64,000 bases of DNA from assembly GCA_002937505.1 (NCBI GenBank), contig PTJY01000003.1, forward strand, positions 192,060-256,059, read 5' to 3'. Shown piece by piece: positions 34,223 to 47,388 of this stretch (position 1 is its first letter; every line of letters begins with the position of its first letter). The notes beneath the pieces were generated by a model. It was not told the DNA's origin and made no database searches. It was given only the letters and a program-made list of their open reading frames with translations. The position numbers and the translations under genes were made by a program. Source of the stretch: Alphaproteobacteria bacterium MarineAlpha12_Bin1. GTDB lineage: Bacteria; Pseudomonadota; Alphaproteobacteria; UBA6615.

Positions 34223-34478
34223 TTGGTGTCCTTTTTATTATCAATATTAATCAAAAATATAACTTCGTATTTATATTATCTATCAGTCTAATTAAAAAAT
34301 CTTTATTTTCTTAAATTCTTAAATCATTAGCCTAAAATGATCTAGTCACGGTTATTGCAATAAAAATATCAGTAGAGCATCAAATTAACAGTCTTACGCC
34401 CTAGACACATAGGAAAAAATAGGGAAAAATTTAACGCTATATTTATATTACAACAGTTTTTCTCTAGGTGCAGTGCTA

Positions 34479-34820
34479 ATGGGTTCTAATCACGGAATAA
34501 AAAATCGAAGTAAATCTTCTAGGCGTGTATCCTTTGACCAGGGAGAGCTAAGAGTTTTACTGAATGAATATAGCAGAAGAGTAGCTGCAGGCGAATGGAG
34601 AGATTACGCAATTGATCATGGAAGAGATAGAGCTGTATTTTCTGTTTTTCGTCACACAGCAGAACACCCTTTATACTCAATTGAAAAATTGCCTGTAAAA
34701 ATCGGGAAAAGAAACAGATATGGTTTAAAGAAAGGGCCGGTCCATTTACATCAAGACACTAGTCTCACAAATTTGGTGAGCACTATTGAGCGTAGACCTC
34801 AATTAATTAGAATTGGCTAA
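34479..34820 (+). CDS. DUF2794 domain protein
   Basis: Conserved alphaproteobacterial protein of unknown function, 113 residues. The core with FDQGELRVLLNEYSRRVAAG and WRDYAIDHGRDRAVFSVFR is the DUF2794 signature. It is basic, soluble and has no leader. The ATG at 34479 is preceded by AGGTG; an in-frame GTG six bases upstream is less likely. It lies 18 bases before the namZ-like gene, which may be co-transcribed. Confidence 0.86.
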   Translation: MGSNHGIKNRSKSSRRVSFDQGELRVLLNEYSRRVAAGEWRDYAIDHGRDRAVFSVFRHTAEHPLYSIEKLPVKIGKRNRYGLKKGPVHLHQDTSLTNLVSTIERRPQLIRIG

Positions 34821-34838
34821 AAATTAAAAATACTACAA

Positions 34839-35993
34839 TTGAATAATTTCCTAAATTCCTACTCTGGCATCGACACGCTATTAGCAAATGAAAACCTACT
34901 TCGCCGCCTTAGGACTCTGCGCCTTGGGCTGTTAACAAACACATCTTGTATGACAAATAAGGGCGAGGTCACTTTTAAGGCACTTCCCAAAGCATTAAAA
35001 AGCCCGTCAAGTAAAGGGCTTAATCTGCTGTTTGCTCCTGAACATGGATTTCAAACTAATTTAGAGCCCGGGGAAAAAGTAGATGATCATTTTGGAGATA
35101 TTCCGATATACAGCCTTTACGGAAATTCAAAAAAACCGACTCCAGAACAACTTTCGGAATTAGACGTACTAATTATAGATCTTAGAGATGTTGGTGTTCG
35201 ATGTTATACGTACGCCGTAACAGCCGCTATATCTGCTGAAGCCGCATTAGATGAAGGAAAAGAAGTAGTAATCTGTGATCGAGAAAACCCTCTAGGCACT
35301 GAGACAAATGGCCCCCCTTTAGATCCTTTGTTGCGCTCATTTCTGTGTTATTTTGATGTACCTTTCATACATGGGGAAACACTAGGAAACTTGGTAAAAA
35401 ATTCACTAAAAAAACATCCACGCTATAAAAAACTGATTGTTTTACCTGCTGTACGAAATTTAAATGTCACATTAGAACCCTGGATAGCCCCTTCACCCTC
35501 TCTGGTGTCAGCAGAATCGGTGCAACTATATCCGGGCTTAGTTCTGCTTGAAGGAACGAACCTAAGTGAAGGGAGAGGAACACCCTACGCTTTTTCATCT
35601 GTTGGAGCACCCTGGCTAAGAGCCCATGAAACAGAATCGGTGATTAATGGCTGGTCTACTGGAATAACTGCTCATGCATTAACTATATGTCCCAAAACGG
35701 GTCAATATAAAGATGAGACATTACAAGCAGTACACCTTAAACAAACAAGAAGTAATTGCGACAGCTTTAGCTTTGGAATAAAACTTTTATCATGGATAAG
35801 AAACTCTCATAGAGAATTTAAGTGGTTACATAACAAAGATAAAGTCAATCACCTTAGGTCAGATGGCTCTATTGAGAAGCCTATTACAGATTATAAAATA
35901 GATGTTTTACTTGGAAATAGAAGTCTGAGGGAAATGTTAGATAGGGGTATTTCACCCGAAAATATTCTTGATAGTTGGAAGTCTAGCGATTAA
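34839..35993 (+). CDS. namZ: DUF1343 family exo-beta-N-acetylmuramidase
   Basis: NamZ-type (YbbC) enzymes release MurNAc from the non-reducing end of peptidoglycan fragments. Family marks are LGLLTNTSCM near residue 30, FAPEHGF, LDVLIIDLRDVGVRCYTY and LSEGRGTPYAF. Length is 384 residues. No secretion signal is seen, so it would act in the cytoplasm, unlike the secreted Bacillus enzyme, unless a leader is missed. TTG 34839 is the first possible start in frame. Neighbouring murQ, nagA and a sugar kinase fit MurNAc salvage. It converges with nagA and the two genes overlap by 11 bases. Confidence 0.82.
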   Translation: MNNFLNSYSGIDTLLANENLLRRLRTLRLGLLTNTSCMTNKGEVTFKALPKALKSPSSKGLNLLFAPEHGFQTNLEPGEKVDDHFGDIPIYSLYGNSKKPTPEQLSELDVLIIDLRDVGVRCYTYAVTAAISAEAALDEGKEVVICDRENPLGTETNGPPLDPLLRSFLCYFDVPFIHGETLGNLVKNSLKKHPRYKKLIVLPAVRNLNVTLEPWIAPSPSLVSAESVQLYPGLVLLEGTNLSEGRGTPYAFSSVGAPWLRAHETESVINGWSTGITAHALTICPKTGQYKDETLQAVHLKQTRSNCDSFSFGIKLLSWIRNSHREFKWLHNKDKVNHLRSDGSIEKPITDYKIDVLLGNRSLREMLDRGISPENILDSWKSSD

Positions 35994-37083
35994 AGACTGT
36001 GGATCCTTCAACTATAACTTCAACAACATCTAAATGCTCATTTAGAATAACAAAATCAGCAGAAGCCCCCTTTTCTAATCTACCTCTATCCTTGGCACCT
36101 ATTAGATCAGCTGGTATTGTAGATAAACGTCTTGATGCCTCTTTAACATCTATTCCAATCGACAAAAGGTTTCTAAAAGCCTTATCCATAGTTAACGCGC
36201 TACCAGCGAGGATTTGATTCTCGAAAAAAACTCCGTCACCTCGCTTAGTCACTTTATTTCTACCAAGCGTATAATCCCCATCAGGCATTCCTGCAGCTGA
36301 AGTTGCGTCGGTGACAAAGTAGAGATCCGGTAGTGACCTCAATGCTGCATGAATTGCACCCTCTTTTACATGAATTAAGTCAGGAATTAGTGCGGCTGCA
36401 GTTCCATGAGCGAGGGCTGCACCTACTACTCCCGGTTCTCGATGATGTAGAGGGCTCATTGCATTATATAAATGAGTAAACCCGCCAACCCCATCTTTAA
36501 TGGCTGATTTTATTTCCTCATAACTGGCATTACTGTGCCCCACTTGAACTAGAATACCTCTAGAAACAAGCTCCTTTATTAGGATATGTCCTGGATCACA
36601 TTCAGGGGCAAGCGTTACTAATTTAACATTAGCACATTTCAGCAAATCTTCTATAAACTTTAGATCTGGAGACTGAGAAAAAGGAGGCTGTGCTCCCAAC
36701 ATCTCCGAATTCAAGTAGGGACCCTCCATATGAACACCAAGTATACGTGCTTCATTTTTATGCCGATTTGATGAAACAGCATCTATAGCTTTTGCAGCTA
36801 AAATTATCTCTTTTTCTGGCGCGGTTATAGTGGTGGCAAGAAAGGATGTTGTTCCATGACTAGCATGTAAAGATGCGCACAATCTTAGGTCGTCCTCTCC
36901 CCGCATTACATCACCACCACCTCCTCCAGGAACGTGTAAATCAACGAAACCGGGCAATACAATTAGCCCTGAATTTTCCCGCCCTGATTCCGAAATAGAG
37001 TTTATTTTTTTATCAAACTGGATAGTTCCTTCCACCCAACCATCCGGAGTTAGTATCTGTCCTTTAAAATTCAGCAAAGTCAA
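35983..37083 (-). CDS. nagA: N-acetylglucosamine-6-phosphate deacetylase
   Basis: Amidohydrolase converting GlcNAc-6-P to GlcN-6-P. Metal and catalytic residues are seen in GFVDLHVPGGGG, GVHMEGPY (Glu), the two histidine-bearing VGHSNAS and HLYNAMSPLHHREPG blocks, and the catalytic Asp in FVTDATSAAGMPDG. The 366 residues match. TTG 37083 overlaps the stop of the upstream kinase gene (TTGA), so the two are translationally coupled. It would finish the route from MurNAc-6-P via MurQ. Confidence 0.92.
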   Translation of the reverse strand: MTLLNFKGQILTPDGWVEGTIQFDKKINSISESGRENSGLIVLPGFVDLHVPGGGGGDVMRGEDDLRLCASLHASHGTTSFLATTITAPEKEIILAAKAIDAVSSNRHKNEARILGVHMEGPYLNSEMLGAQPPFSQSPDLKFIEDLLKCANVKLVTLAPECDPGHILIKELVSRGILVQVGHSNASYEEIKSAIKDGVGGFTHLYNAMSPLHHREPGVVGAALAHGTAAALIPDLIHVKEGAIHAALRSLPDLYFVTDATSAAGMPDGDYTLGRNKVTKRGDGVFFENQILAGSALTMDKAFRNLLSIGIDVKEASRRLSTIPADLIGAKDRGRLEKGASADFVILNEHLDVVEVIVEGSTVFNR

Positions 37084-37988
37084 ATCTCATTCCAATCTGA
37101 TATTTCATTAGGAACCTTACCTTGAGCTAGAAAAAGCGCACCATTAACTGGACTCCCAATAGGCTTCTTGATATTAGCTTTTAGAGATTGGGGCAAATAA
37201 GGTGCCAAAGGCTCTGCCAGCCCCCCTAATAAAGAAAGTGGTGTTTTATTAACCTCTTGCATAACAGAGGCAAGAGATTCAATTTCCAAACCTGCTTCTG
37301 TTGATAAGTTTATAGCAAAACGATCACCTTCATTAGCACAATCTATTACCATAGGTGCCAATGAAGCAAATTCAGTTGGACCAGCGTCGTTTAACCATTC
37401 CAAAATACCCTTTCTGTTGAGTCCACATTTTTTAATCAACAGTCGGTGTAGTTCAGAGTCCAAATTTCCTAAATGTCCTTCTTGTGCCTTAAGTGAAAGA
37501 GATAATGCTCTCATACCAATCCAAGCCCCCCCACCTTGATCCCCGACCGGAAAACCCCAGCCTCCGTAAATGCTTTGCTTACCAGTTTTGCTAATTGTAT
37601 ATCCAACTGTTCCAGTGCCAATGATTATTATTGATCCAGCTGACCCACCATGTGCACCCAGAGCAGCTATGTATGCATCCGTAACAACTTTTATGGACTT
37701 AAAGTCGTATGGTGAATCTCGATAAAATTGATTACGTAATTTTTCGTTATTCGCCCCTGCCACTCCAATAACTAGATCAGTAGATGAAAATTGATTTATT
37801 TCTATACCTAATGTCGTATAGAGATCTTTCAGTGTTTCACAAATTATATCCCATGGTTTTATGTGATTTATGCTGAGACTAGTGGGACCAGTAATAGTTG
37901 TTCCAAGTCGCCTCCCATGACCATCAAATAAAGCCACTTGTGTTTTACTTCCACCTCCATCAATGCAGCAATAAAAAAGATTGGCCAT
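37080..37988 (-). CDS. Amino-sugar kinase of the BadF/BadG family (GlcNAc or MurNAc kinase)
   Basis: ASKHA-fold kinase: phosphate-1 motif CIDGGGSKTQVALFD at the N-terminus, adenosine-side motifs IIIIGTGTVGY and GGWGFPVGDQGGGAWIG. This is the N-acetylglucosamine kinase type, to which the Clostridium MurK (MurNAc/GlcNAc kinase) also belongs. With murQ and a NamZ homologue nearby, phosphorylation of MurNAc as well as GlcNAc is a reasonable inference. ATG 37988 is preferred, having GGATG six bases upstream; ATG 37997 adds three residues. Confidence 0.83.
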   Translation of the reverse strand: MANLFYCCIDGGGSKTQVALFDGHGRRLGTTITGPTSLSINHIKPWDIICETLKDLYTTLGIEINQFSSTDLVIGVAGANNEKLRNQFYRDSPYDFKSIKVVTDAYIAALGAHGGSAGSIIIIGTGTVGYTISKTGKQSIYGGWGFPVGDQGGGAWIGMRALSLSLKAQEGHLGNLDSELHRLLIKKCGLNRKGILEWLNDAGPTEFASLAPMVIDCANEGDRFAINLSTEAGLEIESLASVMQEVNKTPLSLLGGLAEPLAPYLPQSLKANIKKPIGSPVNGALFLAQGKVPNEISDWNEI

Positions 37989-38107
37989 TAATTTCATCCA
38001 ACTAAATAGTTTTCTATAAACATTAAAATCAGAAAACTTTTCGATTCGCTGATATGTTATGAAAATACTTTAACCAAAGTAAAGACAATCTCTGGACAAG
38101 AAAGCCT

Positions 38108-39004
38108 ATGAATACGGAACAAATTGATAAACGTTATGAAGACTTAGACATACGATCCAATGATGAGATCATTAAAATATTAATTAATGATCAAATAGAT
38201 AAGTTCAATCTACTACTAAATTACAAGCATGATATTTCAACAGCTGCGGCTGCGTTAGCCAATCGCTTAAAAAAATCTTCAACTGGACGACTAGTATATG
38301 CTGGAGCTGGAACCTCAGGCCGACTGGGAGTTTTAGATAGTGCCGAGCTTTTCCCCACATTTGGATGGAAAAAAGAGAGAAGTACTTTTCTTTTAGCTGG
38401 AGGGATCGAATCTTTAACAACCTCCATAGAAGGTGCAGAAGATAGAGAAGAGGAAGCTGTTCACCAAATAAAAAATATAGAAATCGATGAAAGAGACGCT
38501 CTTGTAGCCATATCTGCTAGTGGAAGCACTCCATTTACATTAGCAGCTTGCGATGCAGCAAGAAGATCTGGAGCTTTAACAATCTCGATAGTCAACAACA
38601 AACCTTCCCCCCTTTTTGATGCTGCTGAACACCCTATTGCCATCGAAACAGGCTCCGAACCTATAGCTGGTTCAACACGATTGAGCGCAGGCACCATACA
38701 AAAAATAGTATTAAACTCTTTATCAACGCTGACTATGATACGCTTAAATCGTACCTATGGTGCTTACATGGTAGATGTTAAACCAACAAACAAAAAACTA
38801 AAGGAAAGAGCTGTTCGAATGATCTCAGAAATTTGCTTAGTAGATCAGAATAAAGCCCAACAATCACTCATTGACGCTAAAAACAACCCTAAACTGGCCG
38901 TCCTTATAGCTAAAGGCCTTTCAGTAGATAAGGCCAAATATTTATTAAACTTGAGTAATGGAAATCTACGCGAAGCAATAGGTAAGAAGTTTTCTAATTC
39001 ATAG
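38108..39004 (+). CDS. murQ: N-acetylmuramic acid 6-phosphate etherase
   Basis: Cleaves the lactyl ether of MurNAc-6-P to give GlcNAc-6-P and D-lactate. A SIS fold with AGAGTSGRLGVLDSAE is followed by a sugar-phosphate loop (AISASGST); E80 and E111 match the catalytic Glu83 and Glu114 of E. coli MurQ. The 298 residues are standard. It is divergent from the kinase-nagA pair, with about 119 bases of shared upstream DNA, so it may be co-regulated with them. Confidence 0.95.
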   Translation: MNTEQIDKRYEDLDIRSNDEIIKILINDQIDKFNLLLNYKHDISTAAAALANRLKKSSTGRLVYAGAGTSGRLGVLDSAELFPTFGWKKERSTFLLAGGIESLTTSIEGAEDREEEAVHQIKNIEIDERDALVAISASGSTPFTLAACDAARRSGALTISIVNNKPSPLFDAAEHPIAIETGSEPIAGSTRLSAGTIQKIVLNSLSTLTMIRLNRTYGAYMVDVKPTNKKLKERAVRMISEICLVDQNKAQQSLIDAKNNPKLAVLIAKGLSVDKAKYLLNLSNGNLREAIGKKFSNS

Positions 39005-39039: not shown

Positions 39040-40059
39040 CTACTGAGCAGCAATATCGAGATTGTCGGAATAATTAACCAAGTCCGCAGCTGACCTCAAA
39101 AGCTCCAAAGCTTCAGTTGGGTTATCATTAAATTTAGGTAACTGTTCGGAAAGAAGTCGTCTCCAAGAACGCGCCCCAGGTTGACCATTAAATAACCCGA
39201 GAATATGCCGGCCAATTGATTTTAATGGAACTCCTTCTCCAACAGACTTTTCAACATATGGAAGAAATCTCTCTAAGACTTCATGTCGAGAAATATATTT
39301 TTTATCCTCACCATAGAATCGGTTGTCTACTTCAGCAAGCAGATAAGGATCGCCATATGCTGCCCGACCAAGCATAACTCCATCAACATGACACAAATGT
39401 TCTTCAGCAGAGTTAAGATCTGTAATTCCTCCATTTATTGTTACTGACAAATCTGGAAACTCATCTTTAAGCCTATAGACCAATTCGTATCGAAGTGGAG
39501 GTATTTCTCTATTCTCTTTGGCGCTCAAGCCGTCTAGCATAGCTTTTCTGGCATGCACAATAAAATGTTTACAGCCTGCTCTAGAAACAACTTCTACAAA
39601 TCTAGATAAAGAACTCCACTCATCTTGATCATTAATGGCAATACGATGCTTCACTGTAACTGGGATATTAACTGCGGAAGCCATCACGTCAACGGCGCTT
39701 GCAACCAAATCTGGTGTTGCCATAAGACACGCACCAAAATTACCCACCTGCACTCTATCTGAAGGACAACCAACGTTCAGGTTAATTTCATCGTATCCAT
39801 AATCTTCGCCAATTCGAGCACATTCTGACAACTCTGATTTATCTATACCTCCAATTTGTAGAGCGAGCGGATTCTCATCAGAACTAAAAGCAAGCAAGCG
39901 GTCTTTATCACCCCGCAAGATAGCACCACAAGTAATCATCTCAGAGTATAGCTTCACATTTCGACTTATTTGCCGTAAAAAAAATCTTTCATGACGATCA
40001 GTCCAATTCATCATTGGAGCTACTGATATAGGACTGATGGGTATATTATTATTTGCCAT
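39040..40059 (-). CDS. dusA: tRNA-dihydrouridine synthase A
   Basis: FMN-dependent reductase of uridines in the tRNA D-loop. The N-terminus APMMNWTDRHERFFLR and the active-site Cys C98 in NVGCPSDRVQVGNFGA identify the DusA subgroup, and HARKAMLDGLSAKENR is specific to it as well. The 339 residues fit. It converges with murQ and precedes no obvious partner; panC starts beyond its 5' end on the same strand. Confidence 0.95.
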   Translation of the reverse strand: MANNNIPISPISVAPMMNWTDRHERFFLRQISRNVKLYSEMITCGAILRGDKDRLLAFSSDENPLALQIGGIDKSELSECARIGEDYGYDEINLNVGCPSDRVQVGNFGACLMATPDLVASAVDVMASAVNIPVTVKHRIAINDQDEWSSLSRFVEVVSRAGCKHFIVHARKAMLDGLSAKENREIPPLRYELVYRLKDEFPDLSVTINGGITDLNSAEEHLCHVDGVMLGRAAYGDPYLLAEVDNRFYGEDKKYISRHEVLERFLPYVEKSVGEGVPLKSIGRHILGLFNGQPGARSWRRLLSEQLPKFNDNPTEALELLRSAADLVNYSDNLDIAAQ

Positions 40060-45893: not shown

Positions 45894-46116
45894 TTTCTAA
45901 TCTCCTTTAACATAATTTATATCTATTTAATTAATTATCGAATAATTTACTAATTATTATAACTAAAACCCTGCAGCTTTTAAAACAGATGATCAATCCC
46001 AAAAATGCTTTTATATTTACATTTATCTTTGTGTGCTAGATATTGATTGCAATCAACGAAATCTGGTCAATATTTTCCTATTGTGCCATAATACAGAGAC
46101 TAGTTTAGGACTTTTT

Positions 46117-47388
46117 ATGGATCGGCCGAATATGAAAGAGAACATCAAAACACTAGACTTGGATGCGTCATCTTCATCCTACATACCTCCGCTTGAGCTC
46201 ACGGAAGGCCAGCCTCCGCCGATAGCTGCAAACGGAGGTTTGTCATATATGTCTTTCGAGAAAAACGGTGATGCGGGAACAACTGCGGCTATAGAGGCTG
46301 CCTTAGCTCAAATTGAGGATGGAAAAGAGCTAGTAAACATGATCGAGAAGGCTCCTCCAGGCCCCATCCAAACGAAATGGGGTTTAGGTTTCCGCAACTA
46401 TGATGAATGTCTTGATTATATTAAAGCGAATGGTATTGGCTCTTCTGAAGAGACCTTGGCCCTGCCTTTAGCTTATACAATCTTTGAGCAACCAACATAT
46501 TCCATAGTGCCGTCAAATTCTTTATGGAAAGATCCTTCACGCGCGACAGAGGCAGAATTGCTGCGTGAAAATGAAGAAGGAAACCGACGTCGGAATCTAT
46601 ATTTTCCACAGATTATGCGTGATGCAAGACGTATCGGAGAGTACTATCCAGGTCTTACACCTGATAGCTCTGAATGCATGGATCAACTCGGTTTGTCGAT
46701 AGCACACTTAGATTCTAAGTGCACAAATTTCTATGATTCAGCAGAGGTGCAGCGCGTATTTTATCCTGAAATAGAGAATTTGCTTTTAGAGTTTTTTCCG
46801 GATTCAACTGATGCTCTTGTTTTCAATCATGATATTTTTGATAAAGATTATGCTGGAGATAGAACAGAAGACCAAGACGCCAAAAACCCAGGGGTAAATT
46901 CAAGTTACGTTAACCTTGTACATAATGATCTTAACGACAATAGTGGCCGTGTTCGTTGTCGAGAGTTGTTGACCAAAAACCTTAGAAACTTTGGAAGGGA
47001 ACTAAAATACTCTGAAGCTGAAGCCGAAGCTAAAATGTCTCGGCGTTTTTTATCTATCAACTTAGCAAAACCAATGGAAACAGTTGAGCAATTTCCATTT
47101 GTGTTGTGCGCTTGGCCATCCTTTGCTGATCAGCCCTATATTAATAATTATAGAATCTATGATGATCGAGTTGGTGAGACTACTCGTTTCACTTATCGTC
47201 CTGACCATGAATGGTATTGGATACCAAAACAGACGCCAACTGAAGTTTCTATGCTAAAATGCTATGATTCTATTAACGATGGATCAGTCTCACGCTGGTC
47301 GTTTCACACAGCCTGCATTGATCCAACAGTCCCACTAGATGCGTCATGTCGTAAGAACGTAGTGGTACGTGCTTACGTTTTCTTTTAG
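46117..47388 (+). CDS. CmcJ/NvfI family oxidoreductase, long form
   Basis: 423 residues. The C-terminal half matches the CmcJ/NvfI (AsaB-like) group related to cephamycin CmcJ and fungal NvfI. A putative non-haem iron triad is H269-x-D271 (VHNDLND) and H397 (FHTACIDP), with basic R412 and R418 near the end as possible co-substrate ligands. The middle shows EQFPFVLCAWPSF, parallel to the second copy at 56308-57171. About 130 additional N-terminal residues distinguish this copy. ATG 46117 is chosen for AGGA six bases upstream; the frame is open further upstream. Substrate unknown. Confidence 0.7.
   Translation: MDRPNMKENIKTLDLDASSSSYIPPLELTEGQPPPIAANGGLSYMSFEKNGDAGTTAAIEAALAQIEDGKELVNMIEKAPPGPIQTKWGLGFRNYDECLDYIKANGIGSSEETLALPLAYTIFEQPTYSIVPSNSLWKDPSRATEAELLRENEEGNRRRNLYFPQIMRDARRIGEYYPGLTPDSSECMDQLGLSIAHLDSKCTNFYDSAEVQRVFYPEIENLLLEFFPDSTDALVFNHDIFDKDYAGDRTEDQDAKNPGVNSSYVNLVHNDLNDNSGRVRCRELLTKNLRNFGRELKYSEAEAEAKMSRRFLSINLAKPMETVEQFPFVLCAWPSFADQPYINNYRIYDDRVGETTRFTYRPDHEWYWIPKQTPTEVSMLKCYDSINDGSVSRWSFHTACIDPTVPLDASCRKNVVVRAYVFF

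Follow-up and report, generated by a model that had tools for sequence, protein, structure and literature searches.

What pathway do four neighboring genes for peptidoglycan amino sugars serve in the genome of Alphaproteobacteria bacterium MarineAlpha12_Bin1, and in which compartment does the muramidase among them work? Alphaproteobacterial recycling, as described in Caulobacter (PMC13046382) and Agrobacterium (PMC9790009), uses the AmgK-MurU shunt. The original prediction for this locus was a different route, from MurNAc to MurNAc-6-P, GlcNAc-6-P and GlcN-6-P, as in Bacillus and Clostridium. We analyzed the genes in the window (the whole stretch of DNA, 64,000 nucleotides), the rest of the pathway in the same genome, and the corresponding loci in relatives.

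Gene order and conservation of the cluster

The four genes are contiguous and each has the identity originally assigned to it. The first, namZ (34839..35993, + strand), has a TTG start and encodes a leaderless GH171/DUF1343-type exo-beta-N-acetylmuramidase of 384 aa that matches PF07075 and PF20732 above cut-offs. On the opposite strand are nagA (35983..37083), for an N-acetylglucosamine-6-phosphate deacetylase of 366 aa, and nagK (37080..37997), for a BadF/BcrA-type amino-sugar kinase predicted to act on GlcNAc and possibly on MurNAc too. The fourth, murQ (38108..39004, + strand), encodes an N-acetylmuramic acid 6-phosphate etherase of 298 aa. Because nagK and nagA overlap by 4 bp, they are probably expressed as a single transcript.

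Three of the four genes share an upstream region. The claim of one common region held for nagK-nagA and murQ, which diverge from a 110-bp promoter region defined by the gene coordinates (37998..38107). A comparison of 12 family members revealed short conserved blocks in this region and no clear palindrome or operator between nagK and murQ. The claim did not hold for namZ, which is convergent with nagA (the 3' ends overlap by 11 bp, 35983-35993) and follows a gene for a DUF2794 protein (34473..34820, + strand; PF10984, 84.5 bits) after 18 bp, on the same strand and in the same frame. The DUF2794 gene is probably a conserved neighbor outside the recycling pathway.

Some relatives differ from the window at the edges of the cluster. 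In the window, no FemAB/GNAT-like gene separates murQ (end at 39004) from the dusA open reading frame (start at 39040). Several relatives have such a gene (~350 aa; PF13480, FemAB) directly after murQ and before dusA, on the - strand (5153-6208 in L034 and 4654-6129 in L051). Some relatives have a small FlaG-like open reading frame between the DUF2794 gene and namZ, also on the - strand (10379-10741 in L034 and 9847-10281 in L051), and therefore namZ is not always immediately 3' of the DUF2794 gene. Elsewhere in the window, 46033-47385 (+ strand) holds a 451-aa open reading frame without a Pfam match at E 0.001.

The cluster is not a chance arrangement, as the block recurs across the family. 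NamZ was found in 22 of 24 family genomes, and so was AnmK. The order and orientation of der-bamB-TPR21-DUF2794-namZ, nagA-nagK and murQ-dusA were kept in 20 family loci, apart from gaps (genes beyond contig ends and a few missing matches), with the DUF2794 gene 5' of namZ in most of them. The exceptions were L039, in which the nagK frame is not intact, and two loci without a match to the upstream genes, L043 and L044.

NamZ is rare in the class (only 26 of 385 genomes). In a quick tree, the family sequences formed a group (99% SH-aLRT) with those of three genomes of another family of the same class, of one alphaproteobacterial MAG and of two MAGs of Trueperaceae. Related gene groups occur outside the family: in a genome of another family of the class (L164), genes for a BadF kinase, an M15 peptidase, NamZ, MurQ and AnmK lie within 11 kb, and a Chloroflexia MAG (L123) has namZ-murQ-kinase-nagA in one direction. 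The proximity of namZ to murQ both in the family and in unrelated genomes suggests a common pathway. In one of the Trueperaceae MAGs of the NamZ clade (L054), NamZ adjoins a peptide-type ABC importer. An alphaproteobacterial MAG (JAIEMB01) has a leaderless NamZ (L052, 7971-9053) outside any murQ/nagA cluster.

NamZ has conserved motif residues and no leader

The assignment as a NamZ homologue with muramidase-type residues was borne out, with the residues taken as conserved and not as catalytic. Scores were 148 bits for NamZ_N and 98 bits for NamZ_C, both far above the Pfam cut-offs. An AlphaFold model made from 20 family sequences (pLDDT 79.5) had significant fold matches only to 4k05 and 4jja, solved DUF1343 proteins of Bacteroides fragilis to which NamZ of the window's clade is ~25% identical. 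The PEHG motif, D117, R121, H178, S219, E238 and R246 were invariant in all 20 family members, and the conserved motif residues (PEHG and others) are common to 4k05 and 4jja.

NamZ apparently works in the cytosol. As predicted, it has no secretion signal: all 20 aligned family members have only a few residues ahead of the conserved SG(I/L)D motif, with no hydrophobic segment among them. In the window, a TAA at 34818-34820 lies in the namZ frame six codons before the TTG start at 34839, so that a missed upstream start with a leader is impossible. Leader calls were made with a simple hydropathy rule, which is rough for some fused or truncated open reading frames.

Leaderlessness is not unique to this clade of NamZ. 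By the same rule, NamZ was leaderless in 21 of 21 proteins of the same class outside the family set and in about 50 of the 80 closest relatives, and this was frequent in other phyla. We know of no leaderless NamZ protein that has been characterized. Secretion is a trait of the characterized B. subtilis NamZ and not a criterion of the fold family, and the window NamZ does not share it. The NamZ frames of L144, L104, L116 and L130 run hundreds of residues upstream into beta-lactamase/serine-hydrolase-like sequence and are possible fusions.

NagA, MurQ and a kinase that may accept MurNAc

The assignments of NagA and MurQ were clear. NagA scored 256 bits against TIGR00221 (cut-off 225.65), aligned over its length with the solved NagA 7nut and retained the E/H/H/D metal-site motifs. 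MurQ scored 312 bits against NF003915 (cut-off 168) and fell below the cut-off of TIGR00274 (260 versus 302); it aligned over its length with the solved MurQ 4lzj, with the Glu motifs LD.aE and EGAED conserved.

The specificity of the kinase is harder to read. It belongs to the BcrAD_BadFG family (PF01869), and its sole NCBIfam match, NagK_SO3507 (NF046058), scored 186 against an equivalog cut-off of 370. By sequence, the kinase is thus related to the SO3507-type NagK and not assignable as that equivalog. The nearest fold was 1zc6, with Clostridium acetobutylicum MurK (8zo3; 25% identity in the fold alignment) and human NagK lower in the list. MurK, which has the same fold, phosphorylates both MurNAc and GlcNAc (PMC5790795). 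Kinases active on MurNAc are expected to have residues that leave room for the lactyl ether, in MurK S133-P134-L135 and T94 (PMC10465942). At these sites the window kinase, with G141-G142-W143 and T102-D103, resembles human NagK, whose residues there were judged compatible with MurNAc (PMC10465942). The kinase is nearest to GlcNAc kinases, and a dual activity on GlcNAc and MurNAc is a plausible prediction.

The rest of the pathway is of the AnmK-MurQ type

AmgK, MurU and AmpG were not found in the genome (2.34 Mb, listed as 100% complete), which we searched family by family. Four APH-family matches exceeded the cut-off: a homoserine kinase (thrB, adjoining ispH and rnhA), a protein of the ACAD10 type and two that are choline-kinase-like. 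The verdict on AmgK covers these four, with the sub-cut-off match L008 set aside. The two choline-kinase-like proteins are at C1:137533 (L007) and C1:572771 (L006), one of them near lytic transglycosylase-like and moaB-like genes. Matches to the MurU model were RfbA and GalU. The cut-off of this model (NF045761) is missed by Caulobacter too, and the absence of MurU rests on naming each match. There were no matches to AmpG (TIGR00901). PF01182, which would have revealed a NagB or a 6-phosphogluconolactonase of that type, gave no match either.

The predicted absence of the AmgK-MurU route was thereby supported for this genome, and with AmgK, MurU and AmpG not found, MurNAc therefore passes through MurQ. 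The predicted MurQ-NagA route was correct in this respect and incomplete in another: the genome also has AnmK, NagZ and a leaderless AmpD-like amidase (Amidase_2; 114 versus an NCBIfam cut-off of 143). The presence of these three indicates that the core is an E. coli-type AnmK-MurQ-NagA/NagK pathway to which NamZ has been added. The likeness to Bacillus and Clostridium must be qualified to the same extent, as the core supply of MurNAc-6-P is by AnmK from anhydroMurNAc, as in E. coli; the MurNAc kinase of the original prediction remains plausible. AnmK acts on the anhydro form of MurNAc and AmgK was not found, so free MurNAc could be used only by way of the BadF kinase or an unrecognized kinase.

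A candidate importer is present away from the cluster. No transporter adjoins the four genes, as had been noted. Elsewhere in the genome, however, there is a yejABEF operon and an unlinked second YejA-like protein, the orphan at C5:395394. YejB and YejE exceeded curated cut-offs, whereas YejF, at 732, did not reach its equivalog cut-off of 834. By analogy with Agrobacterium, YejBEF together with the orphan YejA-like (YepA-like) protein is most likely an importer of wall fragments.

Proposed pathway and alternatives

We think it likely that the cluster is a module for recycling peptidoglycan amino sugars, in which imported fragments are processed by cytosolic NagZ and NamZ, the BadF kinase, MurQ and NagA. 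This reading draws on gene content, synteny, fold, residue conservation and the lack of matches to AmgK, MurU, AmpG and PF01182. Wall fragments would enter without AmpG, most likely by YejBEF and the orphan YejA-like binding protein, and the AmpD-like amidase would cut off their peptides in the cytosol. NagZ would take GlcNAc from non-reducing ends, and NamZ would take MurNAc from the MurNAc-GlcNAc ends exposed by NagZ or from imported MurNAc-GlcNAc; release of MurNAc from imported MurNAc-GlcNAc ends is the most likely activity of NamZ. AnmK would phosphorylate and open the ring of terminal anhydroMurNAc, giving MurNAc-6-P, and the BadF/NagK kinase would phosphorylate free GlcNAc, and presumably free MurNAc, at position 6. 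MurQ would then convert MurNAc-6-P to GlcNAc-6-P, and NagA would convert this to GlcN-6-P. Because no PF01182-type NagB was found, GlcN-6-P is probably returned to UDP-GlcNAc and not catabolized.

A more specific version of this proposal is tentative, and we would not be surprised to see it fail: that NagZ and NamZ trim GlcNAc and MurNAc alternately in the cytosol and feed MurQ through a dual-specificity kinase, that this replaces AmpG and MurU, and that cytosolic NamZ is widespread and has gone unrecognized.

Some points speak against the recycling model. The best matches of the kinase are GlcNAc kinases, and sequence does not prove activity on MurNAc. In addition, the substrate of NamZ would be scarce if NagZ and AnmK recycle most GlcNAc-anhydroMurNAc. 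These facts fit an alternative that we consider rather unlikely, in which recycling is of the standard E. coli AnmK-MurQ-NagK-NagA type, the kinase uses only GlcNAc, GlcNAc-anhydroMurNAc is already handled by AnmK and NagZ, and NamZ has taken on some other function in the cytosol, such as cleavage of a 6-phospho substrate or of another beta-hexosaminide. The divergence of the NamZ clade from the solved DUF1343 structures and its own supported branch would agree with such a change of function. The motif residues of NamZ are invariant in the family, however, and the gene is fixed beside murQ, nagA and nagK there and is near murQ in unrelated genomes, which suggests a role in the recycling pathway.

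Less likely still is salvage of foreign peptidoglycan (from prey, neighbors or debris) as MurNAc-GlcNAc or muropeptides. NamZ requires a non-reducing MurNAc end, and the products of the cell's own lytic transglycosylases gain one only after NagZ has acted, which would favor an outside source. Against this, neither a secreted muramidase nor a dedicated transporter for sugars is encoded beside the four genes, the presence of AnmK and an AmpD-like amidase indicates anhydro-products of the cell's own wall, and there is no PF01182 NagB for use of the sugars as carbon. Non-classical export of NamZ to the periplasm is very improbable: a recent review places NamZ of Gram-positive bacteria outside the cell (PMC13204101) and the B. 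fragilis chain 4k05 carries the name 'exported protein', but 20 of 20 family members lack a leader or hydrophobic N-terminus, an in-frame stop lies just 5' of namZ, and no PTS or sugar permease adjoins the cluster.

Recycling of the cell's own fragments in the cytosol thus remains our preferred reading. If NamZ is intracellular, it can no longer be viewed only as an enzyme of extracellular salvage, and import would have to extend to glycans of more than one disaccharide, or to MurNAc-GlcNAc. The AmgK-MurU shunt was not found in this genome, and AnmK-MurQ-NagA together with a NamZ that is not classically secretable is kept family-wide. Without the MurU shunt, recycling is predicted to give no protection from fosfomycin.

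Comparison with known systems

All of the genes are of known kinds, and their combination (no AmpG, no MurU shunt, AnmK with MurQ, and a leaderless NamZ) differs from the described cases. The closest core is the AnmK-MurQ-NagK-NagA pathway of E. coli, with which the window genome shares AnmK, NagZ, an AmpD-like amidase, MurQ, NagA, a GlcNAc-type kinase and the conversion of MurNAc to GlcNAc-6-P. Unlike in E. coli, AmpG and a PF01182 NagB were not found, and there is an additional enzyme, NamZ, encoded in a cluster with murQ. The window kinase is BadF-type, whereas E. coli NagK is ROK-type. C. acetobutylicum MurK (PMC5790795) has the BadF-type fold and a dual specificity that the window kinase possibly shares, at only 25% identity.

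The B. subtilis cluster murQ-murR-murP-amiE-nagZ-ybbC(namZ) (PMC5061867) likewise combines NamZ with MurQ and uses the MurNAc-6-P etherase route. In Bacillus, however, release of the sugars takes place outside the cell, and the PTS permease MurP brings MurNAc in (PMC5061867). The cluster in the window has no murP, murR or amiE beside it and its NamZ has no leader; the phosphate would come from AnmK and a separate kinase.

Among alphaproteobacteria, Agrobacterium resembles the window genome in its lack of AmpG and in having, besides a yejABEF operon, another YejA-like binding protein encoded elsewhere; in Agrobacterium the place of AmpG is taken by YejBEF working with YepA, an alternative binding protein (PMC9790009). 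Agrobacterium makes UDP-MurNAc through AnmK-MupP-AmgK-MurU (PMC9790009), a branch that MurQ replaces in the window genome. Caulobacter crescentus shares AnmK, NagZ and an amidase with the window genome, but differs in having AmpG and the MurU shunt and in lacking MurQ (PMC13046382).
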